Part shown: one piece after another, positions 9,299-42,041 of the stretch
Layout: each line of letters begins with the position of its first letter
How positions within the stretch are numbered: the first letter of the stretch is position 1
Assembly: GCF_019633745.1 (NCBI RefSeq)
Contig: NZ_CP037968.1
Coordinates: 2,672,789-2,736,788 of the forward strand
Length of the DNA stretch: 64,000 nt
Direction of reading: 5' to 3'
Source: Methanofollis formosanus
GTDB taxonomy: Archaea; Halobacteriota; Methanomicrobia; Methanomicrobiales; Methanofollaceae
Translations under genes and position numbers: made by a program
The notes under the pieces: model-generated
What the model was told of the DNA's origin: nothing
Database searches by the model: none
What the model saw: only the letters and a program-made list of their open reading frames with translations

Positions 9299-9559
9299 AT
9301 GACAAAACGATCTCAGAAGAGACGAGACGGCAGCCCCCAGACTGAAGACTGCTCCAACACAGGTTCACGGAGGTCTGCCATCTCTCAGTCGTCGCGGGAA
9401 GATGTAAAATCTGTCGGTCCGGTGCCGCTCTACCTGGTGCCGCCGGTGGTGACGGCAGCGGTGAACCGTGTCGGCGGGGCGCTCTCCGAACTCTGCGTGC
9501 GCCGGAGCGGGATGCATCTCTATACGGTGAGGATGACGGTGCTGGAGGAGGAGGCATGA
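9299..9559 (+). CDS. Small protein, first gene of the PrimPol operon
   Basis: An 86-residue protein with a basic, Ser-rich N-terminus (MTKRSQKRRDGS) and a more ordered second half (PLYLVPPVVTAAVNRVGGAL). I recognise no family. The start is well supported by AGGAGG a few bases upstream. The stop overlaps the start of the next gene by 4 bp (ATGA), so it is translationally coupled to it and through it to the primase gene. In plasmids and integrated elements, small basic proteins at this place are often copy-control or DNA-binding proteins; that is inference only. Confidence 0.6.
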   Translation: MTKRSQKRRDGSPQTEDCSNTGSRRSAISQSSREDVKSVGPVPLYLVPPVVTAAVNRVGGALSELCVRRSGMHLYTVRMTVLEEEA

Positions 9560-9891
9560 ACGGCACGCTCTGTCCCGGCCCGGACGGGACGCTCCACCTC
9601 TTCGTGGGCCGCGGGCATTTCCGGATCGCCGCCGACGACACCAGAGCGCTGCTTGCCGGGGGGACGGTGGTGCCGGTGACGATGGATGAGACCGGGACGG
9701 CCGAGGACGGGACGGTGGGTGGCCAGACGCTGATCGTGGGCCATGCGGCGATGAACCACTTCGAACGGTCGGTGAAGATCTTCACGGTCGCCGGGCACTT
9801 CATCGTGCCGCTGGTGAGCGTGCAGCGGGTGGTGCGGGGCGAAGCGGCCTCGGCGCCGCTCTTCCCCCTGGTCCCGGAGGGGTGCCCGTGA
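9556..9891 (+). CDS. Hypothetical protein, second gene of the PrimPol operon
   Basis: A 111-residue protein without recognised domain. It is predicted to be soluble and rich in beta strands (DGTLHLFVGRGHFRIAADD, SVKIFTVAGHFIVPLVSVQR). It is sandwiched by 4-bp overlaps on both sides: ATGA with the small upstream gene and GTGA with the primase-helicase gene. Such tight packing suggests that the three proteins are made together and that this one assists replication of the element. Confidence 0.6.
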   Translation: MNGTLCPGPDGTLHLFVGRGHFRIAADDTRALLAGGTVVPVTMDETGTAEDGTVGGQTLIVGHAAMNHFERSVKIFTVAGHFIVPLVSVQRVVRGEAASAPLFPLVPEGCP

Positions 9892-12629
9892 TCAAAGCGG
9901 CCCTTGCCGCCCTCTTCCCGGCGGGCGGCGTCGTGGAGGTGCGGGCGCTCGCCGACCGCTTCACCCACTCCGGCTACTTCGACGACTTTGCGAAGTTGGC
10001 GAGCGCCGCCGAGGCGCTCGACGCCGACCCCGAGGTGAAGGGGACGTACGTCACGCTCAACGTCGTCGACCCGGCGCTCCTCGCGAGGCGGGCAAACCGC
10101 GTGAAGATGCGGCTCACGCGAAGCGATCCCACCACCGCCGACGCCGACATCCTCAGGCGCCGGTGGTTGCCCATCGACCTCGACCCGGTGCGGCCGAGCG
10201 GGGTGTCGGCGACGGACGCGGAACACGAGGCAGCGATCGAGCGGGCCGAGACGATCGCCCGCTGGCTCGCGGAGCAGGGCTTTCCCGATCCGATCAAAGC
10301 CGACTCAGGCAACGGCGCCCATCTGCTCTATGCGATCGATCTCGCGAACGACGAGGCGGCCGCCGCCCTGGTGAAGGGCGTGCTCGCCACCCTGGACGCG
10401 TTGTTTTCGGACGAGGTGGTGACCGTCGACACCGCGAACTTCAACGCCGCCCGCATCTGGAAACTCTACGGGACGACCTCGCGCAAAGGCGACCACACCG
10501 TCGAACGACCGCACCGTCGTGCGAAGATCCTCGCGGTGCCGGAGCACCCGGAGGTCGTCGACGCCGACCTCCTCGAAACGATCGCCGGCCGCCTCCCGCG
10601 GGAGGCCCCGGCACAACCGAAAGGGAAGAGCGGCATCGACCTCGGCGCATGGCTCCGCGAGCACGGCCTTGGCGTGCGGAACACCCGGCCCTGGCAGGGC
10701 GGAACGCTCTACGCCCTCGAGGACTGCCCGTTCAGCGGGGCGCACCGTGACGGCGCCTTCGCCGTGCAGTTCCCCTCGGGTGCGATCTATGCCGGGTGCC
10801 ACCACGCCTCCTGCGGCGGCGGGACGCAGCGGTGGCCCGAGCTGCGGAGGATGTACGAGAAGCGGCGGAAGGCGTCGGCGCCTCCGCCCATCCCGCCGCC
10901 GCCCGACGAGGCCGACCGCGAGCAGGCGATGGAGATCCTCACCCGCGGCGACCCGCTCGCCTTCATGCTCGACACCTTCTCCCGCGAGCACGTCGGCGAC
11001 CGCATCGTCGCCGAGTGCCTGGTGATGTCCCTCGCCTCGCAGTCGGTGGAGAACACGAACGGGCTGCACGTCTCCGTGTCGGGCAACTCCGGGAAGGGGA
11101 AGAGCCACGCCTGCACCACGATGCTCAAGCAGGTGCCGGCCGCCTACCGCCTCGCCGGGACGGTGAGCAACAAGGCGCTCTACTACCACGACGACCTCCA
11201 CCCGGGCACGGTCTTCCTCTTCGACGACGTCTCCCTCTCCGACGATCTCCAGGAGGTGCTCAAGGCGGCGACGGCAAACTTCAGGGACCACATCGAGCAC
11301 CACACCGTCTCGCCGGACCGCAAACTCCAGATCTGCCGCCTTCCCGAACGCTGCGTCTGGTGGCTTGCCCGCGTCGAAGATCCCGGCGACGACCAGGTGC
11401 TCAACCGGATGCTCACTGTCTGGATCGACGACACCCTCGAACAGGACGAACGGGTGCTCAAATACCGGAAGCGTGCGGAGACGCGGGAGAAGAAGGTCGC
11501 CGCCGAAGACCCGGCCCTCCCGGTCTGCCGGGTGATCTGGGAGGTGCTCAAGGAAGAGCGCGTCCACGTCTCCATCCCGTACGCCGAGCGGGTGCAGTTC
11601 TCGGTGACGGCCAACCGCCGGAACCCCGGCATGCTCTTCGACCTCATCAAGGCCTCCGCGCTCCTCCGCCGGTTCAGGCGCGAGCACTTCGACGGCGGCA
11701 TCCGGGCAAACCGGGAGGACTTCGAGACGGCGGCGCGGATCTACGCGGCGATCAACGGGGAGGCCGGCGGGCAGGAGACGAAGGTGACGAAGAACGAGGC
11801 CGCCGCCCTGGAGACGGTGGCGGCGATGGGGTGGGACGTCTTCACCGTTCGCATGCTCCAGGATGCCCTGGGACTCTCGTACCACCAGACCCGCCGGATA
11901 CTCCAGGGGTATAACAACGGCGGCTCTTCCTACTCGGGGCTGCTGGAGAAGTGCCCGGCGGTCGGGTTCGTGGACACCACCATCTCCGAGGAAATCGACG
12001 GCTCCATGGTCCGCCGGCGGGAGCACCATTATTCCTTCGACCTGGCGGCATATCGCCGGTGGAGCGGAGGTGCGCATGTCTGGCTCGACCGCGACCCCGA
12101 CCCCCCCGACGATAGCACGTTTGCACCTGGTTTGCACCGAAGTTGCACTGAGAACGTGCAAAGCAGGGGGACGGAGGAACGGCCCCGGAGTACTTATTCT
12201 AAAGAGAGAAGAGAGATCTCTCTCTCCTCTAGTACTAGATTGCACCAAAACGAGGACGCACCCACCACCCCTGATCGGTCGGGGTCTCCGGGTGAGGGTG
12301 GGTGCGATCGGCGTTCTGGTGCACATGAGGACAATGATCCCGACAAAACCGTCCCGATCGAGAAACCGGGCCACAAAATCCTCCCGTTCGGTAGCACTTT
12401 CAGAGTGCAACCCGGTGCAATCCAGTGCACACGTGCAAACAAGGTCCTGCCGCTCCCTGGTGTCCTGGACCGCCGGGAGTTCACGCGGGTGAAAACCGAT
12501 CTCGGCCGCTGCGATGTGTGTGGCGAGGGGAAGGCGGTGCACCGCTCGGCCGACAGGCAGGTGGTGCTCTGCGAGGGGTGTTATGCGAGGGTGGTGCAGG
12601 CGTGGAACGCAGGGATGGGGGTGGGATGA
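9888..12629 (+). CDS. Primase-polymerase/helicase replication protein of a mobile element
   Basis: The 913-residue protein appears to be a fused initiator. The N-terminal part has archaeo-eukaryotic primase motifs: LPIDLDP (D97, D99), SGNGAH (H145) and VDTANFN (D181), followed by RIWKLYGT. A central ATPase has Walker A GNSGKGKS (399-406) and Walker B VFLFDD (D446, D447). A helical winged region follows near 660-690. Residues about 740-865 are low complexity and coincide with the iteron-like DNA repeats. The C-terminus has a four-Cys zinc ribbon (C875, C878, C895, C898). The GTG start forms a GTGA overlap with the previous gene and has GGAGG at good spacing. No integrase or att site is recognised nearby, so the element may be a remnant or integrate by other means. 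Confidence 0.8.
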   Translation: MIKAALAALFPAGGVVEVRALADRFTHSGYFDDFAKLASAAEALDADPEVKGTYVTLNVVDPALLARRANRVKMRLTRSDPTTADADILRRRWLPIDLDPVRPSGVSATDAEHEAAIERAETIARWLAEQGFPDPIKADSGNGAHLLYAIDLANDEAAAALVKGVLATLDALFSDEVVTVDTANFNAARIWKLYGTTSRKGDHTVERPHRRAKILAVPEHPEVVDADLLETIAGRLPREAPAQPKGKSGIDLGAWLREHGLGVRNTRPWQGGTLYALEDCPFSGAHRDGAFAVQFPSGAIYAGCHHASCGGGTQRWPELRRMYEKRRKASAPPPIPPPPDEADREQAMEILTRGDPLAFMLDTFSREHVGDRIVAECLVMSLASQSVENTNGLHVSVSGNSGKGKSHACTTMLKQVPAAYRLAGTVSNKALYYHDDLHPGTVFLFDDVSLSDDLQEVLKAATANFRDHIEHHTVSPDRKLQICRLPERCVWWLARVEDPGDDQVLNRMLTVWIDDTLEQDERVLKYRKRAETREKKVAAEDPALPVCRVIWEVLKEERVHVSIPYAERVQFSVTANRRNPGMLFDLIKASALLRRFRREHFDGGIRANREDFETAARIYAAINGEAGGQETKVTKNEAAALETVAAMGWDVFTVRMLQDALGLSYHQTRRILQGYNNGGSSYSGLLEKCPAVGFVDTTISEEIDGSMVRRREHHYSFDLAAYRRWSGGAHVWLDRDPDPPDDSTFAPGLHRSCTENVQSRGTEERPRSTYSKERREISLSSSTRLHQNEDAPTTPDRSGSPGEGGCDRRSGAHEDNDPDKTVPIEKPGHKILPFGSTFRVQPGAIQCTRANKVLPLPGVLDRREFTRVKTDLGRCDVCGEGKAVHRSADRQVVLCEGCYARVVQAWNAGMGVG
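12121..12438 (+). repeat. Iteron-like repeat clusters around a palindrome (candidate replication origin)
   Basis: Inside the 3' part of the PrimPol gene, TTGCAC occurs at 12121, 12132 and 12143, exactly 11 bp apart, with an inverted GTGCAA at 12156 and a further TTGCACC at 12240. The opposite orientation is clustered at 12405, 12415, 12425 (GTGCAC) and 12433. Between the clusters lies a hairpin-forming AGAGAGAAGAGAGA/TCTCTCTCTCCTCT tract flanked by two AGTACT sites (12190-12235). Helically phased repeats in or beside a replication gene are typical of iteron origins. Confidence 0.6.
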
Positions 12630-24837: not shown

Positions 24838-27507
24838 ATGGATTCCTCCTTCCCCCTGTATTTCCGATACTGGGGCAAGAGTCGGACGGAAAACGATCCG
24901 GACGCCGTCCATCTCCTGCCCTATCATGCCCTCGACGTGGCCGCGGTCGGTTCAGTACTTCTCAACGCCGACACCCTTCTTCGTGAGCGCATGGCCCGCC
25001 TTCTCCAGATCCCCGAACACCAGATTACTCCGCTCGTCTGTTTTCTGCTCGCCACCCACGACATCGGGAAATTTTCAACGCCTGCGTTTCAGTTGTCAGA
25101 CTCTACCGCAACATGGCGCCTCCAGGGTGTCCAGGGGGAGTGCATCAACGGCTACCATAGCGACGTGGGGTTCGCCCTCTGGAAAGCCCGCCTCTGGGAC
25201 GACGCAGTTCAGCACGATCTGATCCCATTGGACGGGGAGTTCGACAGCGACGACTGGCAGGATCTCCTCTTCCCGCTTATCAAGGCCGTCTGCGGCCACC
25301 ACGGCACCCCGCCGGAGGACGTCGGCCCGATCAGGCGCCTGTTCCTGCCGGCAGATATCGAGGCGGCAGAAGAGTTTGTTCAGGATGCCGCCGCCCTCTT
25401 CTTCAGCGGGGGTGCCGTGCCCTTTCAACCCGAAGAGGAACTGTTCCAGCGGGTGAAACCGTTTTCGTACCTTTTTGCCGGGTTCTGTGTTCTCTGCGAC
25501 TGGATCGGATCCGACCGGGAGTACTTCCGGTTCTGTCAGGAACCGATGCCTCTCCCCAAGTACTGGGAGACGGCACTGAGAACAGCAGGCCGAGCAGTGC
25601 GGGAAAAGGGTGTCATGCCGGCCAGACCGTCCGGGGACCAGGGGCTTGAAAGACTCTTTCCCGGCATCTTTCCAGAATCTGCCCCCACCGATCTCCAGCG
25701 CTACTGTGCCGCCTGTCCTCTCGATGCCGGCCCCCACCTCTTTTTCATCGAGGACATCACCGGCAGCGGGAAGACCGAGGCCGCCGTCACCCTTGCCCAT
25801 CGCCTGATGGCCAGGGGTGATGGAGAAGGAATGTATTTCGCCCTCCCGACGATGGCGACCGCAAACGCGATGTACGCCAGGATCCAAAAAACTTCCGACA
25901 TTCTCTTCGAGGACAAGAACTATTCCTGTATCCTGGCCCATTCCGCCAGCCACCTCTATGGGGTCATGCAGACATTCCTCAACGACGGGACCGGATCTGA
26001 ACAACCCGGGAAAACGTGGCTCTCCGACAATAGAAAAAAGGCCCTGCTCGCCCAGGTCGGCGTCGGGACCATCGATCAGGCCCTCCTCTCCATCCTCCCG
26101 GTGCGGCACCAGTCGCTCAGGTTGTTCGGCCTGGCCAGGAACATCCTGGTCGTGGACGAGGTGCATGCCTGTGACTCTTATATGCATAAACTGTTGCAGA
26201 GGCTTCTTGAGTTCCATGCCGCCTCCGGTGGGAGTGCAATCCTGCTCTCGGCCACGATGACCCGGCAGCAGCGGGAGGACCTGGCCCGGAGTTTCGCACG
26301 CGGGGCCGGGTGGCAGGCGCCTGCCCTCACTTCGAGCGCCTACCCGCTGCTCACTCACCTCTCCTCGGCCAGACCCCCGCATGAACAGTCTTTCACCGAC
26401 GCGAAGGAGAAACGTGTTGCAGTCAGCCTCATCTCGTCCGAGACCGAGGCGGAAGCGGCACTGATCGAAACCGCCCGGTCAGGCGGGTGTGCATGCTGGG
26501 TCAGGAATACGGTCGACGACGCGGTGGAAACTTATCTGCGGTTGAAAGACGCGCTGCCGGCGGGCACGGTTCGTCTGTTCCATGCCAGGTTCGCCCTTGT
26601 CGATCGTCTTATGATCGAGAAGACGGTGACCGAGATCTTCGGGAAGGACAGCACCCCTGCGATCCGGGCCGGGCAGATCCTCGTTGCGACGCAGGTGGTT
26701 GAGCAGTCTCTGGACCTTGACTTCGACCTGATGGTGAGTGACCTCGCCCCGGTGGACCGCCTGGTGCAGCGGGCCGGCCGGGTTCACCGTCACGCTCGCG
26801 GCCCTCGCGGGGAGGCTCGTCTCATCGTTCTCTCTCCGGTAGTCATTGACGATCCGGGGGAGGGATGGTACTCCGCTCTCTTCCCGCGGGGTGCATGGGT
26901 GTATCCGGATCATGCCCGCCTCTGGTTGACCGCCCGGATACTTGTGGAGACGGGTGAGATCGTCGTCCCCCGTGATGCCAGGGCCCTTGTGGAAGAGGTG
27001 TTCGGGCCGAAGAGCGAGGATGCAATCCCCGAAGGGTTCAGGATGGCGGCCGCACAGGTGCGGGGCGAGGAGCGTGCCGATGCCTCGTTCGCGGCAGAGA
27101 ATGCTCTGCGGTTGAAGAAAGGATATACGGTGACCGAAGGGCTGTGGGAGAGCGATGCCCGGACGCCGACTCGCCTCGGCGAACCGACGGTCACCCTGCG
27201 GCTTGCCCGGTGGGACGGCGAGCAGGTTCTGCCCTGGGCAGAGGTTTCCGACCGCAGGGCCGCCTGGGACCTCAGCCAGGTGAGCGTGAGGGAGAAGTAT
27301 GCTGCGAAGAAAGCGGAGTTTGCCTCCCCGTTGGCTGAGGCGGTGGAGAGAGCCCGCGCCCGGATGGTCGATGCGGGGAGGTATGTCGTGATCGTCCCGC
27401 TCCGCCCCGTCGGCGAGGTGTGGGAGGGATCTGCACGAGATTGTTCGGAGAAAGAAATCTTATTGAGGTACAGTCCGACGATCGGACTGATGAGAGATCT
27501 TCAATGA
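24838..27507 (+). CDS. cas3: CRISPR-associated helicase-nuclease Cas3 (type I-E)
   Basis: An 889-residue protein, normal for I-E Cas3. The N-terminal HD nuclease has H30 and H74-D75 (LATHDIGKFS). The SF2 helicase follows: Walker A GSGKT (309-313), DEVH box (440-443), SATMT, then VEQSLDLDFD and the arginine-finger motif VQRAGRVHRH. Cas3 is recruited by Cascade to the displaced DNA strand, nicks it and degrades it with ATP. It is the first gene of the cas cluster; the 290 bp upstream (24551-24837) is T-rich and without a gene, and holds the likely promoter. All catalytic residues I can check are present. Confidence 0.95.
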   Translation: MDSSFPLYFRYWGKSRTENDPDAVHLLPYHALDVAAVGSVLLNADTLLRERMARLLQIPEHQITPLVCFLLATHDIGKFSTPAFQLSDSTATWRLQGVQGECINGYHSDVGFALWKARLWDDAVQHDLIPLDGEFDSDDWQDLLFPLIKAVCGHHGTPPEDVGPIRRLFLPADIEAAEEFVQDAAALFFSGGAVPFQPEEELFQRVKPFSYLFAGFCVLCDWIGSDREYFRFCQEPMPLPKYWETALRTAGRAVREKGVMPARPSGDQGLERLFPGIFPESAPTDLQRYCAACPLDAGPHLFFIEDITGSGKTEAAVTLAHRLMARGDGEGMYFALPTMATANAMYARIQKTSDILFEDKNYSCILAHSASHLYGVMQTFLNDGTGSEQPGKTWLSDNRKKALLAQVGVGTIDQALLSILPVRHQSLRLFGLARNILVVDEVHACDSYMHKLLQRLLEFHAASGGSAILLSATMTRQQREDLARSFARGAGWQAPALTSSAYPLLTHLSSARPPHEQSFTDAKEKRVAVSLISSETEAEAALIETARSGGCACWVRNTVDDAVETYLRLKDALPAGTVRLFHARFALVDRLMIEKTVTEIFGKDSTPAIRAGQILVATQVVEQSLDLDFDLMVSDLAPVDRLVQRAGRVHRHARGPRGEARLIVLSPVVIDDPGEGWYSALFPRGAWVYPDHARLWLTARILVETGEIVVPRDARALVEEVFGPKSEDAIPEGFRMAAAQVRGEERADASFAAENALRLKKGYTVTEGLWESDARTPTRLGEPTVTLRLARWDGEQVLPWAEVSDRRAAWDLSQVSVREKYAAKKAEFASPLAEAVERARARMVDAGRYVVIVPLRPVGEVWEGSARDCSEKEILLRYSPTIGLMRDLQ

Positions 27508-27513
27508 TCGGCA

Positions 27514-27601
27514 AATATATATGGGGCGTGTTCTCATAGGTGAACCAATGGAAAAAAATTGTAGTGAAATTATAGAGAGGTGTCTCTCATACCCTCCCTG
27601 A
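27514..27601 (+). promoter_or_regulatory. Internal promoter and mini-ORF before cas8e
   Basis: AAATATATAT at 27513-27522 is a good TATA box in the 72-bp gap between cas3 and cas8e, so Cascade may be expressed apart from Cas3. A 17-codon frame (MEKNCSEIIERCLSYPP) starts at 27548 with GGTGA at the right distance and ends at 27601, overlapping the GTG start of cas8e in a different frame. Confidence 0.45.
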
Positions 27602-29199
27602 ACTTGATCGAGGATCCATGGATCCCGGTCATCCGTCAGGACGGGAGTCAGGACATGATCACACCCTGGCAGATCACCTCCCAGCATGGGACAAACCCCA
27701 TTCGATCGGTGGCGTCCCCGCGCCCTGACTTCAATGGGGCGCTGGTCCAGTTCTTGATCGGTCTCTGCCAGACCGCACTCCCGCCGGAAAATCAGCGCGA
27801 CTGGAGAAAATGTCTGACCGTTCCACCCTCTCCCGACGAACTCAAGGTAGCATTCTCCCCTCTTGCCGGAGCCTTTGTCATCGGAGGGGACGGTCCGCAG
27901 TTCATGCAGGAGAGGGGGATCGAGGATAAGAAGATCTGGCAGATCGACAGCCTTCTCATCGGGATGCCGGAGAAGGAGAAGATCAAAGATAATACCGACT
28001 GGTTCCAAAAACGCGGAACTGTTGACGGACTCTGTCCTCGTTGTGCCGCCCTCGCCCTCTTCACCCTCCAGACCAATGCGCCGGGTGGGGGCCGCGGCCA
28101 CATGACCTCGGTCCGTGGCGGTGGTCCGATGACCACGCTGGTTCTCGGGGAAACACTCTGGCAGACGGTCTGGGCGAATGTCGTCGACATGGAGAATTAC
28201 TCTCACCCGGTGGACGACCCCCCGGCTGCAGACGACGCACGCCTCTTCCCCTGGATGGGGGAGGTGCGGACAAGCGCCGGCGGGGAGATGACAACGCCGG
28301 AGGATGTACACCCTTGCCAGGTCTTCTGGGGACTGCCGCGCAGGATCTTGCTTGACCTGGAGGGTGCATCATCTGGAACCTGCGATCTCTGCGGCGCCGA
28401 GACCGACCGTTGCATCACAACCTTCTGGACAAAACCCTATGGGGTGAAGTACGCCGGGTGGGTCCATCCACTCAGTCCATACTACCGGAACGGCAAAAAC
28501 AGCACCGAACTCCTGCCCGTCCACCCTCAGCCCGGCGGGATTACCTATCAGAGCTGGCTCGGTGTGGTCATCGACGACCGGGACGAGGGGAAACACATCT
28601 CAAAGGTGACCACGCTCATCAAAGAAAGGGCTGAAAAGTCAAGTGTTCAGGAATTGATTGGGCGAAAACCATCCATATGGGCCTATGGCTACGATATGGA
28701 TAACAAAAAGCCCAGGTGCTGGTATGAAGGCACCCTGCCGTTGCTCACGATCGATGACGCCTGGAAAGAGGAGTTTGAGGAAACGGCGTCCGGGATGATC
28801 AGGGCCGCTTCGGAGATGGCGAAGAATGTCCAGTGGTGCGTGAAGGTTGCCCTCTATGACAATCCTGCCGATGTAAAGGGCGACCTCTCGGTCATCAACG
28901 CCCGGTTTCTCCAGGCGACTGAGGGGAGGTTCTATGACGGCCTCGACACGGTAGCCCGTGCTCTCGCCGCGGGCGAGGATACTCTCGGGGTCCGGTGGGA
29001 GTGGCTTAAAGATCTTCAGACCGAGGCGAAGACCCTCTTTGGGGAGTATTCCCAGATCGATTCCATCGACGAGATCAATGCCCAGAGAGCGGTGAAGGCG
29101 TGGGGACTGCTGAACAGTCCTGCCTCGAAGTCGAATAAAAAGGTCTGGAAGGCGCTCAGTCTCCCTGATCAGAAAAAATCCGGAAAAGGTGAGAGATGA
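27580..29199 (+). CDS. casA: Cascade large subunit Cas8e (Cse1/CasA)
   Basis: The 539-residue protein begins with SLNLIEDPWIPVIRQDG, the signature N-terminus of Cse1. Two Cys pairs (CPRC, CDLC) probably hold zinc, as in other family members. Cas8e recognises the PAM in target DNA and recruits Cas3. The GTG start is taken because Cse1 proteins start shortly before NLIEDPW; no strong ribosome-binding site precedes it and a short overlapping frame might couple its translation. The stop overlaps the cse2 start by 4 bp (ATGA). Confidence 0.92.
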   Translation: MSLIPSLNLIEDPWIPVIRQDGSQDMITPWQITSQHGTNPIRSVASPRPDFNGALVQFLIGLCQTALPPENQRDWRKCLTVPPSPDELKVAFSPLAGAFVIGGDGPQFMQERGIEDKKIWQIDSLLIGMPEKEKIKDNTDWFQKRGTVDGLCPRCAALALFTLQTNAPGGGRGHMTSVRGGGPMTTLVLGETLWQTVWANVVDMENYSHPVDDPPAADDARLFPWMGEVRTSAGGEMTTPEDVHPCQVFWGLPRRILLDLEGASSGTCDLCGAETDRCITTFWTKPYGVKYAGWVHPLSPYYRNGKNSTELLPVHPQPGGITYQSWLGVVIDDRDEGKHISKVTTLIKERAEKSSVQELIGRKPSIWAYGYDMDNKKPRCWYEGTLPLLTIDDAWKEEFEETASGMIRAASEMAKNVQWCVKVALYDNPADVKGDLSVINARFLQATEGRFYDGLDTVARALAAGEDTLGVRWEWLKDLQTEAKTLFGEYSQIDSIDEINAQRAVKAWGLLNSPASKSNKKVWKALSLPDQKKSGKGER

Positions 29200-29708
29200 C
29201 GATGACCAAAAACGTAGTGCATGAAATGAACCAGAAGGATGACCCGATGGATGCGATCTTCGGGTGGTGGGAGGAGATCAAAGTCCACCGCGGGGACCGG
29301 GCTGAACTGCGGCGCTGCCGGACCCCGGCAGAGGTGGCTTTTGTCCCGGCCTATTACCGACTGAAGGCGGCACTGCCGACCTGGGACCGGGAGAAACTCG
29401 CCGTGATTGCGGGAACCCTTGCACATGTCGAGACCAACGCCGAGAACATCAAAATTGCCGAGCAGTTCGCCCGCCCCAGGGACGGCGGGACGACGGCCCG
29501 CGTCAGTGAGGCCAGGTTCCGCCGTCTCCTCCGTGTGGAAGACGACGACTATGCCGAACTCTTCTCGATGATGAAGCGGCTGATCCTGATGGTCGACCGC
29601 AAGGCGAACATCCCGAGCCTCGTGTGGGGGCTGTACCGCTGGAACCCCCGGACAAAACGGGCGTGGGCAGAGGCGTATTACACGAACATCCAGACGAACA
29701 AAGAATGA
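29196..29708 (+). CDS. casB: Cascade small subunit Cse2 (CasB/Cas11)
   Basis: A 170-residue helical protein with the Cse2 pattern: WWEEIKVHRGDRAELRRCRT near the N-terminus, then VAFVPAYYRL, and the basic C-terminal half with ARFRRLLR. Cse2 forms the belly dimer of Cascade and stabilises the displaced strand. The start overlaps the stop of cas8e and the next gene follows after 9 bp, so all are cotranscribed. Length is typical for the family. Confidence 0.9.
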   Translation: MTMTKNVVHEMNQKDDPMDAIFGWWEEIKVHRGDRAELRRCRTPAEVAFVPAYYRLKAALPTWDREKLAVIAGTLAHVETNAENIKIAEQFARPRDGGTTARVSEARFRRLLRVEDDDYAELFSMMKRLILMVDRKANIPSLVWGLYRWNPRTKRAWAEAYYTNIQTNKE

Positions 29709-29717
29709 GGTGAAAAA

Positions 29718-30845
29718 ATGGCTGAATTTATCCAACTGCATATGCTTGTATCGTACCCGCCGTCGAACCTGAACCGTGACGACCTGGGCAGGCCGAAGAC
29801 CGCAATGATGGGCGGGGCCTGCCGGCTGCGGGTATCGTCGCAGAGCCTGAAGCGGGCGTGGCGCACGTCGGAGACTTTTAAGGAGGCGCTCGGCGGTCAC
29901 CTCGGTGTCCGCACCAAGGAGATGGGCTGGAACGTCTACCTTGCCCTGAAGAGTGGAAAGGCACTGGCCGACGTCGTGGAAGGAACAGACACAGAAGCGG
30001 TGCGGTCTCCGGTGGACGAGAAGAAGGCGGTTGCATGGGGCCAGGCGATCGCTGGGGTCTTTGGCAAGTTGAAGACGGTCAAATCCGTCAAGGACGAGAA
30101 GGATAAGAAAGAGTCGCTCTGTGTCGAACAGATGGTTCATTTCAGCCCGGACGAGATCGCCGCCATCGACAGTCTGCTCGCACGCTGTGCCGAGAGCGGA
30201 GACGACCCGGCCGGGGATGATCTTGAACTTCTCCGGGCGGAGAACTCTGCGGCGGACATCGCTATGTTCGGTAGGATGCTGGCCTCGTCGCCGTCGTTCA
30301 ACTGCGAGGCGGCGGTCCAGGTGGCCCATGCGATCACGGTCCACAGGGTGGCGGTCGAGGACGATTATTTCACCGCCGTCGACGACCTCAACCGCGGCGT
30401 CGAGGATGTCGGGGCCGGGCATGTAGGTCAGGCCGAGTTCGCGGCCGGGCTCTATTATGCCTATCTCTGCATCAACCGCGACCTTCTGGTGGAGAACCTG
30501 GACGGCGACGAGGCGCTGGCTGACCGGGCCATCTGTTCTCTCATCGAGTCGGCGGCGAAGGTCGGACCGAAGGGGAAGCAGAACAGTTTTGCCTCACGGG
30601 CCTATGCATCCTACATCCTTGCCGAGCGAGGGAGTCAGCAGCCCAGGTCGCTCTCGGTGGCCTTCCTCAAGCCTGTCGGCGGCGAGGACTACATGACCGC
30701 GGCGGTGGCCGCCCTCGACAAGACGCGGGAGAATATGGAGAAGGTCTATGGGGAGTGCGCAAGGGAGTGCATGATGATGAACGCCGCCACCGGCACCGGG
30801 TCGCTCGACGAGATCCTCACCTTTGTGTCGGGTGACCATGCCTGA
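29718..30845 (+). CDS. casC: Cascade backbone protein Cas7e (Cse4/CasC)
   Basis: The 375-residue protein begins FIQLHMLVSYPPSNLNRDDLGRPKT and contains RVSSQSLKRAWRTS, hallmarks of Cas7e. Six copies of this subunit form the crRNA-binding backbone of Cascade in the E. coli system. GAGGTG precedes the ATG at good spacing. The 3' end overlaps the cas5e start by 8 bp. The inserted region around residues 90-180, rich in Lys and Asp, probably corresponds to the thumb and helical domain. Confidence 0.94.
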   Translation: MAEFIQLHMLVSYPPSNLNRDDLGRPKTAMMGGACRLRVSSQSLKRAWRTSETFKEALGGHLGVRTKEMGWNVYLALKSGKALADVVEGTDTEAVRSPVDEKKAVAWGQAIAGVFGKLKTVKSVKDEKDKKESLCVEQMVHFSPDEIAAIDSLLARCAESGDDPAGDDLELLRAENSAADIAMFGRMLASSPSFNCEAAVQVAHAITVHRVAVEDDYFTAVDDLNRGVEDVGAGHVGQAEFAAGLYYAYLCINRDLLVENLDGDEALADRAICSLIESAAKVGPKGKQNSFASRAYASYILAERGSQQPRSLSVAFLKPVGGEDYMTAAVAALDKTRENMEKVYGECARECMMMNAATGTGSLDEILTFVSGDHA

Positions 30846-31590
30846 GTATCTCCTGTTCCGGCTCTTCGGCCCGATGGCGGCCTGGGGCGGGATGGCGGTC
30901 GGGGAGTACCGGCCTGCCGAGAGTCATCCGTCGAGGTCGGCGGTCTTCGGGCTGGTGGCGGCAGCCCTGGGTATCCGCCGTGAGGAGGCGGCGCTCCTGC
31001 GGCGGTTGCAGGAGGGGTACCGGATGGCCGTCCTGGTCAATGCGTCCGGAAACCTGATCCGGGACTACCACACCACCCAGGTGCCATCCGAGACGACAAA
31101 GAAGCGGGCCTGGCCGTTTGCGACCCGCCGTGAGGAGGTGAGTGTTCCCCGCGAGTCCTTGAACACCATCCTTTCGACGCGGGAGTATTTCTGCGACGCT
31201 CTGTACACGGTCTGCCTGTGGCCGGCGGATGATGCTCCGCCCTACCCCCTCTCCGCCCTTGCGGAGGCGCTCAGGAGTCCGGCATTTGTGCCGTATCTGG
31301 GGCGAAAGTCATGTCCGGTGACGATCCCGTTGCAGCCACAGGTGATCGGTGGAGATAATCTGCGTGCGGCGATGGACGCGGCGGCTTTTCAGGACCAGAA
31401 CCTTTTGAGATCTATTTCTCGAAAAGGGAAAGGGATGCTCTTCTGGGAAGGAGAGGACGATATGGGCTTTGAGATCGAGAGCAGGCAGACCGTCCCGAGA
31501 CGTGATGTGTCGCTGGACCGGCGGCAATGGCAGTTTACCGAACGAAAGGAGCATGGGGCGCTGGTGCAGGTGCCGGAGGGCGTGCGATGA
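30838..31590 (+). CDS. casD: Cascade subunit Cas5e (CasD)
   Basis: A 250-residue RAMP protein with the N-terminal MPEYLLFRLFGPMAAWG, followed by RPAESHPSRSAVFGLVAAAL, which is typical of Cas5e. It caps the 5' handle of the crRNA in Cascade. The ATG lies within the last codons of cas7e; a GTG five codons upstream is in frame but less likely. Its stop codon overlaps the cas6e start (ATGA). Confidence 0.93.
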   Translation: MPEYLLFRLFGPMAAWGGMAVGEYRPAESHPSRSAVFGLVAAALGIRREEAALLRRLQEGYRMAVLVNASGNLIRDYHTTQVPSETTKKRAWPFATRREEVSVPRESLNTILSTREYFCDALYTVCLWPADDAPPYPLSALAEALRSPAFVPYLGRKSCPVTIPLQPQVIGGDNLRAAMDAAAFQDQNLLRSISRKGKGMLFWEGEDDMGFEIESRQTVPRRDVSLDRRQWQFTERKEHGALVQVPEGVR

Positions 31591-32273
31591 CGCGCTCGAT
31601 CTATCGCATCCGTTTGAGGGATGATGTCCAGAGGACGCCGGCCTTCTGGCGGAGTGTGCGAAATCCGTATGATGTCCACGGGATGGTCTGGAGGATTTTC
31701 TCGGACGGGGCGCGGAAAGATCGCGACTTTATCTACCGGCTTGAGATGCAGGAGTCGTCGCCGGTGATCTATGCGGTTTCCACGGCAGACCCGGTGGACC
31801 TCGACGGGATCTGGGCGATCGAGCAGAAGGAGTACAGCCCGGTGCTCAGGACGGGGCAGCGTCTGGGGTTCAGCCTGCGGGCCAATCCGATCCGGGCGAA
31901 GCGGAATGAGGAGGGGAAACAGAAGCGCTGCGATGTGGTGATGGACGCAAAGACGGTGCTGAAAGAGTCGGGGTGTTCGCCCGACGCCATGCCTTCCCAA
32001 CCGGTGCTTGTCCAGAAGGAAGGTTTTTCCTGGCTTGCTTCCAGGGGGGAGGCGGCGGGGTTTGCGGTGGATGAAGGGATGGTCCGGGCCGAGGGCTACC
32101 GGCAGCACCGGTTTAAGAAACCGAGGGGTAAAAACTGGATATCGATCAGTACCATCGACTTCACCGGGGTGCTGACGGTGACCGATCCCGACCGGTTTGA
32201 AGAGGCCCTGTATGGGGGGATCGGGCCGGCGAAGAGTTTTGGGTGCGGGCTGGTGCTTATCAGGCCGGTGTGA
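31587..32273 (+). CDS. casE: CRISPR RNA endonuclease Cas6e (CasE)
   Basis: A 228-residue protein that cuts the repeat hairpin of pre-crRNA and stays bound to the 3' handle. The HGMVWRIF segment carries the probable catalytic His (H31), like the active-site His of E. coli Cas6e. The glycine-rich C-terminal strand KSFGCGLVLIRPV is the RAMP signature. The repeat of the adjoining array forms the CCCC/GGGG stem expected for its substrate. Translation is coupled to cas5e by the ATGA overlap. Confidence 0.93.
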   Translation: MTRSIYRIRLRDDVQRTPAFWRSVRNPYDVHGMVWRIFSDGARKDRDFIYRLEMQESSPVIYAVSTADPVDLDGIWAIEQKEYSPVLRTGQRLGFSLRANPIRAKRNEEGKQKRCDVVMDAKTVLKESGCSPDAMPSQPVLVQKEGFSWLASRGEAAGFAVDEGMVRAEGYRQHRFKKPRGKNWISISTIDFTGVLTVTDPDRFEEALYGGIGPAKSFGCGLVLIRPV

Positions 32274-32285
32274 GGGGGAACCGCG

Positions 32286-33463
<1,178 letters not shown>

Positions 33464-33593: not shown

Positions 33594-36500
33594 GAGTTCC
33601 CCACACGCGTGGGGATGAACCGATCGTGGTGCCCCACTGGTGCAATGACTTTGAGAGTTCCCCACACGCGTGGGGATGAACCGATCTCGAGCGGGCATCT
33701 ATGTGACTGAGGGATGAGTTCCCCACACGCGTGGGGATGAACCGGCGCCGCCCAGAGATACCCCGAACTGCACGATGAGTTCCCCACACGCGTGGGGATG
33801 AACCGCTCGTCGGCGAGGCTGCGGACGAGATCGAGCCGAGTTCCCCACACGCGTGGGGATGAACCGACATTGAGGATGGCGTTCATGATCGTCGCTACGA
33901 GTTCCCCACACGCGTGGGGATGAACCGGTCAATAGCGATCACGTAGGGCTGTTCGGGGAGAGTTCCCCACACGCGTGGGGATGAACCGCCTAACACCATC
34001 ACCGTATCATCTGAGAAGGTGAGTTCCCCACACGCGTGGGGATGAACCGTAAAACCTGTTCCACCACCAGATTTATGAACAGAGTTCCCCACACGCGTGG
34101 GGATGAACCGAAATGGTGTCAAAAACAATCAACCGCATCATAGAGTTCCCCACACGCGTGGGGATGAACCGAAACAGAAATTATGGAGGAGAAAAAGGAA
34201 TCGGAGTTCCCCACACGCGTGGGGATGAACCGTTTAAATAATGCTTCTTCAAATAACGGATGTAGAGTTCCCCACACGCGTGGGGATGAACCGGCGTTGA
34301 TCACCTCTCGGAGTAGTTGTTCATTGAGTTCCCCACACGCGTGGGGATGAACCGCAACTCATCATACTGGTCAGGACGGCGATTGAGAGTTCCCCACACG
34401 CGTGGGGATGAACCGCCAGCACCGCATCCGCGAGGTCCCGGTCCTCGGAGTTCCCCACACGCGTGGGGATGAACCGAAAAAACCATGTTAGGACAAAACG
34501 ACGAACCTGAGTTCCCCACACGCGTGGGGATGAACCGGCAAACAAGTTTGTTCAATTAATAAAGATAGTGAGTTCCCCACACGCGTGGGGATGAACCGCC
34601 TTCTTCCCAAATATTCTATTTTCGATGAAAGAGTTCCCCACACGCGTGGGGATGAACCGGCCATGGGCGCGCTCTCGGTGAAGGCGGCGGGGAGTTCCCC
34701 ACACGCGTGGGGATGAACCGCCGTATCGGATACATGACCCCAGCACCTACGGGAGTTCCCCACACGCGTGGGGATGAACCGATGATCGGGGCCTGCCTGA
34801 ATTCGCGTGATCGGAGTTCCCCACACGCGTGGGGATGAACCGAGGCGTGCATATGTGCAACCTCTTGCGCGGCAGAGTTCCCCACACGCGTGGGGATGAA
34901 CCGGATACGGACGAGCGGGGGATTATGCGAGGAAAGAGTTCCCCACACGCGTGGGGATGAACCGTATTCGGGGATGGAATTGTGCTGTTAGTGTTAGAGT
35001 TCCCCACACGCGTGGGGATGAACCGAGTGGTAGGCCATAATCGTGCAGTCCTATGCAGAGTTCCCCACACGCGTGGGGATGAACCGGTATACCGTCTCCT
35101 TCTGTTCCTCTCCCTCTAGAGTTCCCCACACGCGTGGGGATGAACCGTCGACGGCACGAACATCCGAGTCTCGTACAGCGAGTTCCCCACACGCGTGGGG
35201 ATGAACCGAAAAATTGTATCGATGCGATGATTGTAACGACGAGTTCCCCACACGCGTGGGGATGAACCGTATGTAGATAATATTAGAAGAAAACTGTAAT
35301 TGAGTTCCCCACACGCGTGGGGATGAACCGAATTGGTCCAAAGCAACTCCACTTGTTCTTTGGAGTTCCCCACACGCGTGGGGATGAACCTATTGAGGTC
35401 AGACCAAAATGAATCTCCACGACGAGTTCCCCACACGCGTGGGGATGAACCGTCTCTATTTGGTATCCTTTTCTTCGAGAAAAGGAGTTCCCCACACGCG
35501 TGGGGATGAACCGATCGTGGAGGGCGGCGACTGCGTCCCCTGCATGAGTTCCCCACACGCGTGGGGATGAACCGCCTGCAAGAGAGACCAGGGAGAGAGA
35601 TCTGAGGAGTTCCCCACACGCGTGGGGATGAACCGGCGAGCATCGAGAAGTTGAGATAGATCTCGCCGAGTTCCCCACACGCGTGGGGATGAACCGATAC
35701 CCGTCATGCTCGTAGTGCCAGTCCACATGAGTTCCCCACACGCGTGGGGATGAACCGACCCCCCGCGCCACGCCCCCTCGGCCGAGGTCGAGTTCCCCAC
35801 ACGCGTGGGGATGAACCTGATACGAGGTCCTCCCCCCACCGCATCGCCATGAGTTCCCCACACGCGTGGGGATGAACCGCCGTCCTTTTCGAGTTGGGTG
35901 ATTTGCCGGATGAGTTCCCCACACGCGTGGGGATGAACCGGCGCCATCCAGGCGCTCTATGCCCCGGCCCCTGAGTTCCCCACACGCGTGGGGATGAACC
36001 GATCTGCCTTGCATCCCGCGTAGATCTCGGAAAGAGTTCCCCACACGCGTGGGGATGAACCGAACTGCTCATCCGCCGCCCGTGCGAAACAGAAGAGTTC
36101 CCCACACGCGTGGGGATGAACCGCGAAACGCCACACCATCGGACTCTGGTATCAGGAGTTCCCCACACGCGTGGGGATGAACCGGCAACGGCCTGTTCGG
36201 TGCCGATAGGGGTGGGGAGTTCCCCACACGCGTGGGGATGAACCGATGTTCGACCGCCCTCAGGAGGTCACCCACGAGAGTTCCCCACACGCGTGGGGAT
36301 GAACCGCGGGCGTCTCATGTCCCCCTGGAAGAAGAACAGAGTTCCCCACACGCGTGGGGATGAACCGCCGGCAGCATCGCGGGTTCGGCCCTATGGGAGG
36401 AGTTCCCCACACGCGTGGGGATGAACCGACGTGGGGATAAAACCGGGTGCGGTCCGGAAGGAGTTCCCCACACGCGTGGGGATGAACCGAGTTTCGCGTC

Positions 36501-39500
36501 GATCTCGACCCATGCTGCACTGAGTTCCCCACACGCGTGGGGATGAACCGATCGCCGAGTTTCAGGAGAGTGCCGGGACTGGGAGTTCCCCACACGCGTG
36601 GGGATGAACCGGCCCGTCTGGCCGGGCAAAACTCGACGCACCTGAGTTCCCCACACGCGTGGGGATGAACCGAGCCGGGCCGCCAGGGTTGGATCGTCTG
36701 GTGCGAGTTCCCCACACGCGTGGGGATGAACCGCACAGGGGGGACTGAGGCGTGGGATACGGTGAGAGTTCCCCACACGCGTGGGGATGAACCGAAAGGG
36801 GGGCTTGTCGTGGCTCTGCTACCTGTGAGTTCCCCACACGCGTGGGGATGAACCGAGGAATGAGGTTATTTGGGAGGGGCAACCCAAGAGTTCCCCACAC
36901 GCGTGGGGATGAACCGGATAGCAACAACCTGTCTGAGAACCAGTTTCTGAGTTCCCCACACGCGTGGGGATGAACCGTGATCGGATGAACAACCAGGAAA
37001 AACACACGCGAGTTCCCCACACGCGTGGGGATGAACCGAGGTTGCGGGGCATCGCTCACCTCAGGCCGAAGAGTTCCCCACACGCGTGGGGATGAACCGA
37101 GGGCGAGATAACCTGGGAAGTCGAGGAGAAGGAGTTCCCCACACGCGTGGGGATGAACCGGTCCCGTTCGTCGATTCCGGAGGAGAGACACCGAGTTCCC
37201 CACACGCGTGGGGATGAACCGACGCACTCGGACTCACCGCCGACGAGGTCGCCGAGTTCCCCACACGCGTGGGGATGAACCGACTCTCCCGAGAGCCTGT
37301 AGAGCCTGCACATAGAGTTCCCCACACGCGTGGGGATGAACCGGCACTGGGAGGCCCCGTTCGACCGCGGCCGCGGAGTTCCCCACACGCGTGGGGATGA
37401 ACCGCGCCACGAGGCCCAGAACGCCGGAAGCATCGAGAGTTCCCCACACGCGTGGGGATGAACCGCGCGGACGGTCCAGAAGAGTTCAGCGAACCCAGAG
37501 TTCCCCACACGCGTGGGGATGAACCGCGCGGACGGTCCAGAAGAGTTCAGCGAACCCAGAGTTCCCCACACGCGTGGGGATGAACCGGCGGCGGTGCAAA
37601 ACCTCGACGAGTGGCGCACGAGTTCCCCACACGCGTGGGGATGAACCGGCACGCGACCGGGAGATCAGGGCGGCGGAGCAGAGTTCCCCACACGCGTGGG
37701 GATGAACCGTCATGGGGAGATTTTAGCGGGGGCGGTGGAAAGAGTTCCCCACACGCGTGGGGATGAACCGGTTCAATAAAAAAAGGCATGTGAGGTCACC
37801 CCGAGTTCCCCACACGCGTGGGGATGAACCGAGCGCCCCCGAGGGCGCCACGTTCTGAGCTTCGAGTTCCCCACACGCGTGGGGATGAACCGAGGCGCTG
37901 CCACAGTGTCGGCGCCGCGTCGGGGAGTTCCCCACACGCGTGGGGATGAACCGATCCCCCTCGATGATCTCATAGTAGGTGCTCAGAGTTCCCCACACGC
38001 GTGGGGATGAACCGGCGACGACCCTCGACGGCAAGCCCGACGCGGCGAGTTCCCCACACGCGTGGGGATGAACCGGCGACTGCTGCTTGCTCTTCAGGCG
38101 TCGGATGGAGTTCCCCACACGCGTGGGGATGAACCGAGGATGACGGTGACCGGACCAAAGTAGTGGACGAGTTCCCCACACGCGTGGGGATGAACCTACG
38201 CCTCGAACTCGACGATGCTGAAGAACTGCGAGTTCCCCACACGCGTGGGGATGAACCGTGTTCCATACCATAGCGCACCACCCTATTTCGGAGTTCCCCA
38301 CACGCGTGGGGATGAACCGGCGCTTCTGAAGGTCTTCGTTTCCCATAGCAGGAGTTCCCCACACGCGTGGGGATGAACCGAGATGGCAGAGTCTCTCGGC
38401 TCGAAACTCCTCGAGTTCCCCACACGCGTGGGGATGAACCGTCCTGTTTGCCGACGGGCGGCGGGTCGAGGGTGAGTTCCCCACACGCGTGGGGATGAAC
38501 CGGGGAAGCACAGATTGTCGAAAAGAAATGATTTGAGTTCCCCACACGCGTGGGGATGAACCGTCCACCGTGGCCTGGCCGTCTGCCTGGCGGTCGAGTT
38601 CCCCACACGCGTGGGGATGAACCGGCGAGGGCGATCTCCTCTGCCTCCTCAGGGGAGAGTTCCCCACACGCGTGGGGATGAACCGCGGCTCGATCTCGTA
38701 CGTGGCAGATCCCTACTGAGTTCCCCACACGCGTGGGGATGAACCGGTAGTCCTCCGTCGTCGCGCTGCACCGGGCCGGAGTTCCCCACACGCGTGGGGA
38801 TGAACCGAACTGGCTCGCGATCATCTCCCCGAACCCCTCGAGTTCCCCACACGCGTGGGGATGAACCGATCCGGGGCGCGGCCGGCACCTATTTCCGGCG
38901 GAGTTCCCCACACGCGTGGGGATGAACCGTACGCCTGCGTCTGCCATCTCAGATCACCCCCGAGTTCCCCACACGCGTGGGGATGAACCGTGGCCGGGCC
39001 GCTCGCACGACCGGATCTCCAGGAGTTCCCCACACGCGTGGGGATGAACCGTCTGCGGAGGGATGGGGGGTTGGCGGGAGGGGGAGTTCCCCACACGCGT
39101 GGGGATGAACCGCCCTCCGAGCGTGATATACTCTTTATTTTTAGGAGTTCCCCACACGCGTGGGGATGAACCGACGCAGCCGCCGCAATCCAGGTGCTCG
39201 ACGCGGAGTTCCCCACACGCGTGGGGATGAACCGAACAGAGAAGGTGAAGAAACGTGACAGAAACAGAGTTCCCCACACGCGTGGGGATGAACCGCGGTC
39301 GAAGCGGCGGATCGTCTCCCTCGACGCGAGTTCCCCACACGCGTGGGGATGAACCGCTCCTGGAGGAACGCCGGACCCCACTCGGCCCGAGTTCCCCACA
39401 CGCGTGGGGATGAACCGTATTCGGCCTCTGAGAGGCAGTATCCCACATTGAGTTCCCCACACGCGTGGGGATGAACCGGCCTGCCTCAGTGAGGACGCCG

Positions 39501-42041
39501 GCGAGGTCGCGAGTTCCCCACACGCGTGGGGATGAACCGAGAGATCGGTATTTCTGGGGCGAGACGACGATGAGTTCCCCACACGCGTGGGGATGAACCG
39601 GCGCTGAGCGGCAGTCTGACTCTCCCGGATCTGAGTTCCCCACACGCGTGGGGATGAACCGACTGCTCACTTCACGCTCTTTTTCCAGACCTAGAGTTCC
39701 CCACACGCGTGGGGATGAACCGAGGCATAAAATGTCAGAAACAGGTTTGAACGGGAGTTCCCCACACGCGTGGGGATGAACCGATGTTCGTTCCCGGCAC
39801 CGGAATCCCGACCGTGAGTTCCCCACACGCGTGGGGATGAACCGCCTCGGGCGGGCTCAGTCGTCGGAGGAGGGCTGAGTTCCCCACACGCGTGGGGATG
39901 AACCGGTGCTCTGTCTGGATTGTTTCCGCGAGTGGTGGAGTTCCCCACACGCGTGGGGATGAACCGACGTGAGCGGGGCCGGATACACTGGCAAAAAAGA
40001 GTTCCCCACACGCGTGGGGATGAACCGCGGTGCTCTGGGCGAAGGGATACCGGCAGTGGGAGTTCCCCACACGCGTGGGGATGAACCGAGAGACGCGGTA
40101 CTCGACTTCATGGCCGGCGCGAGTTCCCCACACGCGTGGGGATGAACCGATACGGCTGTATCTTATCCTTCGTGTCAACGGGAGTTCCCCACACGCGTGG
40201 GGATGAACCGATGATGCACCCGGGCGACACCTCGCTCGGGGCGAGTTCCCCACACGCGTGGGGATGAACCGATCCTCGCCTTTTTCTATTGCACCGGCGA
40301 CAGGAGTTCCCCACACGCGTGGGGATGAACCGGGTCCTCATCGAAGGCGAGATCGTTCCCGACCTGAGTTCCCCACACGCGTGGGGATGAACCGGCGTCG
40401 CACCTCCTGAGGATCTCAAGGTCCCCGAGTTCCCCACACGCGTGGGGATGAACCGCACGCCGCCCTGATGCAGGACCACCCGACGCTGAGTTCCCCACAC
40501 GCGTGGGGATGAACCGACCATCGTCACCCTCCAGGACGGCGTCAGAAAGAGTTCCCCACACGCGTGGGGATGAACCGACGGGGGCCGGGCCCTATACCCT
40601 CGAGTCCGAGAGTTCCCCACACGCGTGGGGATGAACCGGAAACGTCGTACACGGGTTGCGACCCCATAGGGAGTTCCCCACACGCGTGGGGATGAACCGA
40701 TAGTGGTCTATCGCATTCTCTGGAATCGAATGAGTTCCCCACACGCGTGGGGATGAACCGGAATAAGTTCGACACCAGCACCAAACACAGCAGAGTTCCC
40801 CACACGCGTGGGGATGAACCGAGGACCGCACCACCACAAAAAAACCTCGATGTGAGTTCCCCACACGCGTGGGGATGAACCGTAGTATAGGAGGTAGCGA
40901 ATGAGCCACATAACGAGTTCCCCACACGCGTGGGGATGAACCGATCCTGGATTTGCACTGTCTCCAGCGAATCGCGAGTTCCCCACACGCGTGGGGATGA
41001 ACCGATCCTCTACCACGAGGTTCGGGAACGGTTCGGGAGTTCCCCACACGCGTGGGGATGAACCGCGGTGCCGGTGCTGTGATGGAGAACGATGTCCGAG
41101 TTCCCCACACGCGTGGGGATGAACCGGCGGCCACTGCACACTGCCGTTCTGCCCGCAAGAGTTCCCCACACGCGTGGGGATGAACCGAACGCGTCGAACT
41201 GGTTTGGCAGGATGACGACGAGTTCCCCACACGCGTGGGGATGAACCTGAGGAGCGCAACCTGCGCCTCTGAAGGATACAGAGTTCCCCACACGCGTGGG
41301 GATGAACCGATAGCGACTGAGAAATCAGACCTCAGCCACCGGAGTTCCCCACACGCGTGGGGATGAACCGTATAGAATAATATATGGAACATATAGTGAG
41401 TGGAGTTCCCCACACGCGTGGGGATGAACCGATCCTTTCTTATCGTGGTCCGGTCGCCCTGGTGAGTTCCCCACACGCGTGGGGATGAACCATTGTGACT
41501 GGCAGACGATGTAAGCCATCGTCCGAGTTCCCCACACGCGTGGGGATGAACCATTGTGACTGGCAGACGATGTAAGCCATCGTCCGAGTTCCCCACACGC
41601 GTGGGGATGAACCGCCTTCGACGGATATCAGATTGCCCCGGTATCTGAGTTCCCCACACGCGTGGGGATGAACCGACAGTTGGGACACTGCCGCGCCTCG
41701 ACCCTGGGAGTTCCCCACACGCGTGGGGATGAACCTTGAGGATCGGGTTGCCGTCCGCGTCGGTCATCGAGTTCCCCACACGCGTGGGGATGAACCGGTC
41801 TGCGGATCTGCAACGAGGAGCAGATGGCAGAGTTCCCCACACGCGTGGGGATGAACCGCTGGCAGAGTGTGCAGACGGGGGAGTAGACCAGAGTTCCCCA
41901 CACGCGTGGGGATGAACCGGTCGCATGGGCTGCCGACAAGCATGGAGCCGAGAGTTCCCCACACGCGTGGGGATGAACCGGCCCTGCGGGATCACGACGT
42001 CGCCATAACTCTGAGTTCCCCACACGCGTGGGAACGAATCG
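33594..42041 (+). CRISPR. Type I-E CRISPR array, 139 repeats and 138 spacers
   Basis: The 29-bp repeat has the core TTCCCCACACGCGTGGGGA, with GAG before it and TGAACC plus a variable last base after it. The period is 61 bp throughout (32-nt spacers) except one 33-nt spacer at 40333-40365. Repeats are otherwise nearly invariant. The last base is G in most repeats, T at 35391, 35818, 38197, 41248 and 41736, and A at 41492 and 41553. The final repeat (42013-42041) is mutated in its 3' third. Spacers 37466/37527 and 41492/41553 regions are adjacent duplicates. Orientation follows the E. coli I-E repeat, with transcription from the cas2 side. Confidence 0.98.

Follow-up and report, generated by a model that had tools for sequence, protein, structure and literature searches.

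The segment at positions 12121-12438 of the window (the whole stretch of DNA analysed, 64 kb out of one 2.97 Mb contig) is, judging from its sequence, probably the replication origin of an integrated plasmid-like or satellite-like element, situated inside the element's own initiator gene. We infer binding, melting, helicase loading and origin activity of this region in the following form. The winged helix of the encoded primase-helicase would bind a short word that recurs roughly every turn of the DNA, in a direct array on the left, a copy in the middle and an inverted array on the right. With protein assembled on both arrays, the AT-rich stretch that separates them would open, and there the MCM-like helicase part would load and the primase part would begin synthesis. 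The protein linker encoded by the same DNA would be an unstructured by-product with the sole duty of keeping the frame open. The features are listed below; the iterons were located from the sequence and the basis for the other assignments is given in brackets.

9300-9559, forward strand: small ORF 1, part of the element and adjacent to the primase gene in 23/23 loci compared (no Pfam match)
9556-9891, forward strand: small ORF 2 of the element, in 23/23 loci compared (no Pfam match)
9882-12629, forward strand: replication protein gene, AEP primase, MCM-like AAA+ helicase, winged helix, linker and Zn ribbon (ORF, AlphaFold2, Foldseek)
11874-11921, forward strand: codons for the recognition helix and the start of the wing, residues 665-680, predicted iteron reader (AlphaFold2, top covariation window)
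12093-12458, forward strand: linker, residues 738-859, carrier of the predicted origin (pLDDT below 50, relaxed codon-position signature)
12121-12126, forward strand: iteron L1, TTGCAC
12132-12137, forward strand: iteron L2, TTGCAC
12143-12148, forward strand: iteron L3, TTGCAC
12156-12161, reverse strand: inverted iteron, GTGCAA
12189-12236, no strand assigned: GA/TC palindrome, AT-rich and with AGTACT at either end; candidate unwinding element (AT profile; conserved in relatives)
12240-12245, forward strand: middle iteron, TTGCAC
12257-12306, no strand assigned: second stem-loop, CGCACCCACC / GGTGGGTGCG (fold z -2.7)
12319-12324, reverse strand: degenerate iteron, GTGCAC
12405-12410, reverse strand: inverted iteron R1, GTGCAA
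12415-12420, reverse strand: inverted iteron R2, GTGCAA
12425-12430, reverse strand: inverted degenerate iteron R3, GTGCAC
12433-12438, reverse strand: inverted iteron R4, GTGCAA

The gene is chromosomal in Methanofollis and encodes a protein of 915 amino acids. Its AEP primase (approximately residues 1-240) was matched by Foldseek to LigD-Pol and CAPP Prim-Pol, and the best structural matches of the MCM-like AAA+ helicase (approximately residues 340-560) were MCM AAA+ helicases. AlphaFold2 placed a winged helix at approximately residues 637-735, with the recognition helix at residues 667-675. A CxxC...CxxC Zn ribbon is located at the C-terminus (approximately residues 877-900), and its CxxC pairs are visible in the alignment of the relatives. 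Searches with the protein gave no match above the cut-off in Pfam, where no O-like match was obtained either, no match above the cut-off in a PDB sequence search and weak matches only in PHROGs. The linker was modelled by AlphaFold2 as disordered, with pLDDT below 50 throughout residues 738-859, which bears out the low complexity ascribed to it beforehand from the sequence; the iterons are placed exactly within this disordered stretch.

An earlier note on this DNA had reported three copies of TTGCAC exactly 11 bp apart, an inverted GTGCAA close by and a second cluster in the opposite orientation. All were found: the direct copies at 12121, 12132 and 12143, the inverted copy near this left array at 12156, and the second cluster as GTGCAA at 12405, 12415 and 12433 together with GTGCAC at 12425-12430. 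Eight of the 23 TTGCAC/GTGCAA copies in the 64 kb window lie within 318 bp. Random placement of 23 sites gave a maximum of five in such a span in 10,000 trials, which rules out chance clustering. TTGCAC/GTGCAA was the most clustered of the 1,051 hexamers that occur comparably often in the window (12-40 hits). The copies at 12121, 12132 and 12143 are in frames 1, 0 and 2, respectively, so that all three frames are used. As 11 bp is not a multiple of three, the reading frame changes from one copy to the next, as does the encoded peptide, and the DNA repeat is thus not a repeated peptide.

The GA/TC palindrome at 12189-12236 is the most AT-rich part of the linker according to the AT profile and carries AGTACT on both sides (12189-12194 and 12231-12236). 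These flanks agree with the original description of the tract; an extra-stable hairpin was not supported for the window copy, which folds no better than shuffles (z -0.18). A second stem, absent from that description, was found at 12257-12306, where 12257-12266 pair with 12297-12306 and the fold is better than that of shuffles (z -2.7).

Relatives were collected from the host genome, which contains nine protein matches, and from 60 further genomes of the same order; 37 of these 61 genomes gave matches. One scan of species genomes yielded 249 relatives, of which 80 were kept (Methanomicrobiales where named that far, plus a few labelled Euryarchaeota). The homologue comparison suggested by the earlier reading was performed on an alignment of 105 distinct full-length genes across Methanomicrobiales. 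It showed arrays in most of the genes, within a diverging linker; TTGCAC itself, which had been expected to be conserved, was not, and the word varies from gene to gene. The commonest linker 7-mer exceeded all 100 dinucleotide shuffles in 76 of the 105 genes; the single-word test was unclean in the other 29, in part because their words are degenerate. There were 53 different top 7-mers among the 105 genes, although some are noise or represent a single word in a shifted register. Among the clear cases are TTTGCAC, TTTCAGC, TGGCAGC, TGACAGC, CTTCCAC, CCTTCCA, CTTCCGC, ACTTCAA, CCTGCAA, TTGCCCA and GTTGCAA.

Within a gene, one word makes up the direct array on the left, the copy in the middle and the inverted array on the right. 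In this set, the words were forward 273 times and reverse 91 times on the left, and forward 93 times and reverse 158 times on the right. Arrays are present in most of the genes, with copy-to-copy spacing peaking at 11, 8-9 and 19-22 bp. The conserved DNA plan is a direct array, an AT-rich stretch, a middle copy and an inverted array. The maximum AT content over 40 bp of the linker was higher than anything in the gene body in 99 of the 105 genes, and this AT-rich 40 bp occurs roughly 0.31 of the way along the linker, in the interval from the left array to the middle. The GA/TC palindrome is conserved in relatives.

In 142 related pairs with alignable linkers, amino-acid identity was 57% in the linker versus 83% in the body, and mismatches at codon positions 1, 2 and 3 were distributed 30/32/38% in the linker versus 23/18/59% in the body. 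The low linker identity, the near-even codon-position mismatches and the persistent layout indicate that the DNA and not the peptide is what is kept, as had been proposed from the window sequence. The linker is low-complexity and disordered, and the repeats could in principle have come from selection on, or slippage in, a disordered peptide. This explanation is almost certainly wrong and is contradicted by the results: the words occupy all three frames, change from gene to gene and recur inverted, they persist in noncoding copies with stop codons, and linker mismatches fall almost evenly across codon positions. A protein-level repeat was ruled out on the three-frame words and on their persistence in noncoding copies.

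The winged helix was expected beforehand to be the reader of the word, because the recognition helix is followed by GYNNGG in GCAC-type genes and by GYxSRG in CAGCA-type genes. Protein similarity was compared with word similarity in a sliding-window partial correlation corrected for the remainder of the protein. The correlation peaked at residues 665-680, where the partial rho of 0.28 exceeded the window median by about 4 SD. In nine settings (word length by window size) the top window always fell within residues 661-688, the recognition helix or the adjacent wing; at window size 16 it was 665-680 whatever the k, with values that surpassed the median by about 3.2-4.3 SD. The top partial rho ranged from 0.16 to 0.35 across settings, which is moderate, and the gene pairs are non-independent, so that the covariation of word and helix is strong but not decisive. 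Control values from single-copy linker k-mers were lower and mostly peaked at residues 685-712 or in unrelated stretches, and at k = 7 the control also rose at 677-700. The best single covarying residues were N679, G680 and Y677. Pairs of loci with about 90% identity in the body (for example L030 and L063, both in one genome) diverge sharply from residue 677 on, and their words differ too. The winged helix of the encoded protein is the predicted reader of the iteron word.

The same words and the same covariation would fit equally well if the arrays were bound by the protein to regulate its own gene or control copy number (handcuffing, incompatibility), with the true origin elsewhere, and intragenic sites could block transcription. 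We consider this unlikely: the sites are found some 2.2 kb into the gene and not at a promoter, an AT-rich stretch accompanies the left array in 99 of the 105 genes, and no hexamer of similar abundance in the window is equally clustered. An origin in the linker of its own initiator, as proposed in the earlier note, appears to be largely right on the arrays, the AT-rich stretch, the relaxed linker and the covariation of word and helix.

In each of the 23 loci compared, both small ORFs lie ahead of the primase gene. A tyrosine integrase-like gene lies upstream in seven related elements of the set compared, four of which adjoin a tRNA gene; the one integrase gene tested matched PF00589 with E = 4e-27. 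Attachment repeats by the tRNA genes were absent from the flanks examined. The window copy may be stranded; no integrase lies beside it. Searches of plasmids, phages and IMG/VR turned up no free (episomal) form; the only relatives there were of the primase part.

Several further observations concern the elements and their surroundings. Close to its left end the element has a conserved GGCAGCCCCC...GGAGGTCTGCC segment, present at 9331-9381 of the window and in L018, L019, L020 and L021; this segment is retained in degraded copies and is a possible second DNA or RNA signal. By eye, the cargo downstream of the primase gene comprises HsdM-like type I restriction-modification genes in L059, L063, L067 and L068, and the neighbours of other elements include AlbA-type and PIN-like proteins. 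A variant frame of 798-809 amino acids is found in four species (L020, at G000:C1:1563383; G005:C1:1436866; G009:C1:478739; G008:C7:183637) and may be a form that has become fixed or domesticated. The L020 frame ends within the linker; the protein thereby lacks its Zn ribbon, and the iteron region carries on as noncoding DNA. L021 is an internal-deletion derivative that has the start of the element and the predicted origin with the C-terminus, without the primase-helicase body, and by eye L077 resembles it. The window also contains a type I-E CRISPR-Cas locus (Cas3, Cse1, CT1975-like; 24838-33200) and, after it, a CRISPR array (33594-42041) with 139 repeats and 138 spacers. The 138 spacers gave zero matches to the related loci compared here.

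Copies of the putative origin lying outside the gene were searched for with a sequence profile of the GCAC-type core. By our own tally there are 35 strong copies in 12 Methanofollis genomes, six of them inside full-length genes. In eight near-complete Methanofollis genomes we counted about 20 GCAC-type predicted origins without a gene body nearby versus about one body without an origin. Random truncation of relics would be expected to leave the 2.1 kb body more commonly than the 0.33 kb origin, the reverse of this tally. In orthologous noncoding pairs the identity was 0.90 (280/310) in the iterons, 0.92 (215/235) in the hairpin and 0.79 (751/947) in the spacer, with one sequence used in two pairs, one iteron one base off and gaps scored as spacer mismatches; the iterons and the hairpin were each more conserved than the spacer (Fisher p ~5e-6). 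One solo locus is empty in the genome of the window (G000), where the entire intergenic block is missing, so that insertion of the solo copy and deletion are indistinguishable there. In the flanks of L081, other Methanofollis intergenic repeats, which number from dozens to about 100 per genome, adjoin solo copies.

The region is present by itself at many chromosomal loci, much as the end of a mobile element might be, and its overall layout is palindromic; both features would also suit a packaging, recombination or transposition site of the element. Such a role is very unlikely: comparison of a solo copy with the unoccupied locus showed neither a target-site duplication nor clean ends, the integrase is located elsewhere, in several cases beside tRNA genes, and the covarying reader is the primase-helicase and not an integrase. 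If the region is an origin, the solo copies are perhaps kept as natural decoys or incompatibility sites that titrate the initiators of incoming elements with the same word, with diversification of the word as an arms race, an idea that we hold only tentatively. It is modelled on phage lambda, which is arrested by engineered extra copies of ori-lambda at ectopic sites (PMC4488673).

An origin within an initiator gene is not new in principle, since ori-lambda is located inside gene O of the lambdoid phages (PMC6022878, PMC7466680). In both cases the middle portion of the initiator gene contains iterons and, next to them, an AT-rich stretch; here, repeats within the initiator reading frame were found in most of the 105 genes and an AT-rich stretch in 99. 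The primase-helicase, an AEP/MCM-like/winged-helix protein, is not homologous to lambdoid O. Ori-lambda needs both O and P, whereas here one polypeptide comprises primase, MCM-like helicase and winged helix. The present system further differs from ori-lambda in being archaeal, in having short words that flank the AT-rich stretch as direct and inverted arrays, and in its many word variants and solo copies on host chromosomes.

Closer likenesses are found among archaeal elements. The section on arCOG07809 in Makarova et al. (2014; PMC4158269) deals with proposed satellite viruses encoding a primase-helicase-HTH-Zn finger protein. As here, one protein (Mpal_2033) carries primase, helicase, HTH and Zn finger. 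Those elements are small, integrative and equipped with integrases, and integrase-like genes accompany seven of the related elements compared here; that section describes no origin, in-gene repeats or solo copies. Going by the description of Mpal_2033, the primase-helicase is probably an arCOG07809 member. Membership is probable and not proven, because that section assigns the helicase to superfamily I whereas the best structural matches of the present model are MCM helicases. The orf904 protein of pRN1 (PMC4234260) is likewise an archaeal primase-helicase-winged helix protein with a putative origin close to its gene, but that origin is an iteron-free stem-loop downstream of the gene, whereas here the repeats are inside it. 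In geminiviruses (PMC12548392), short iterons differ among relatives and match the cognate Rep, as the words appear to match the winged helix here; those viruses are plant circular ssDNA viruses with an unrelated Rep and iterons upstream of the gene instead of inside it.

If this reading is right, it would provide a predicted origin, an initiator and a reading code for a family of archaeal mobile elements of which one scan of species genomes yielded 249 relatives. The pairing of recognition helices with more than ten clearly distinct words would constitute a data set on site choice by winged-helix initiators. The comparison suggests that the lambda design, an origin in the initiator gene, arose again in an unrelated archaeal primase-helicase, and the solo copies pose the testable question of whether natural origin decoys reside on chromosomes.
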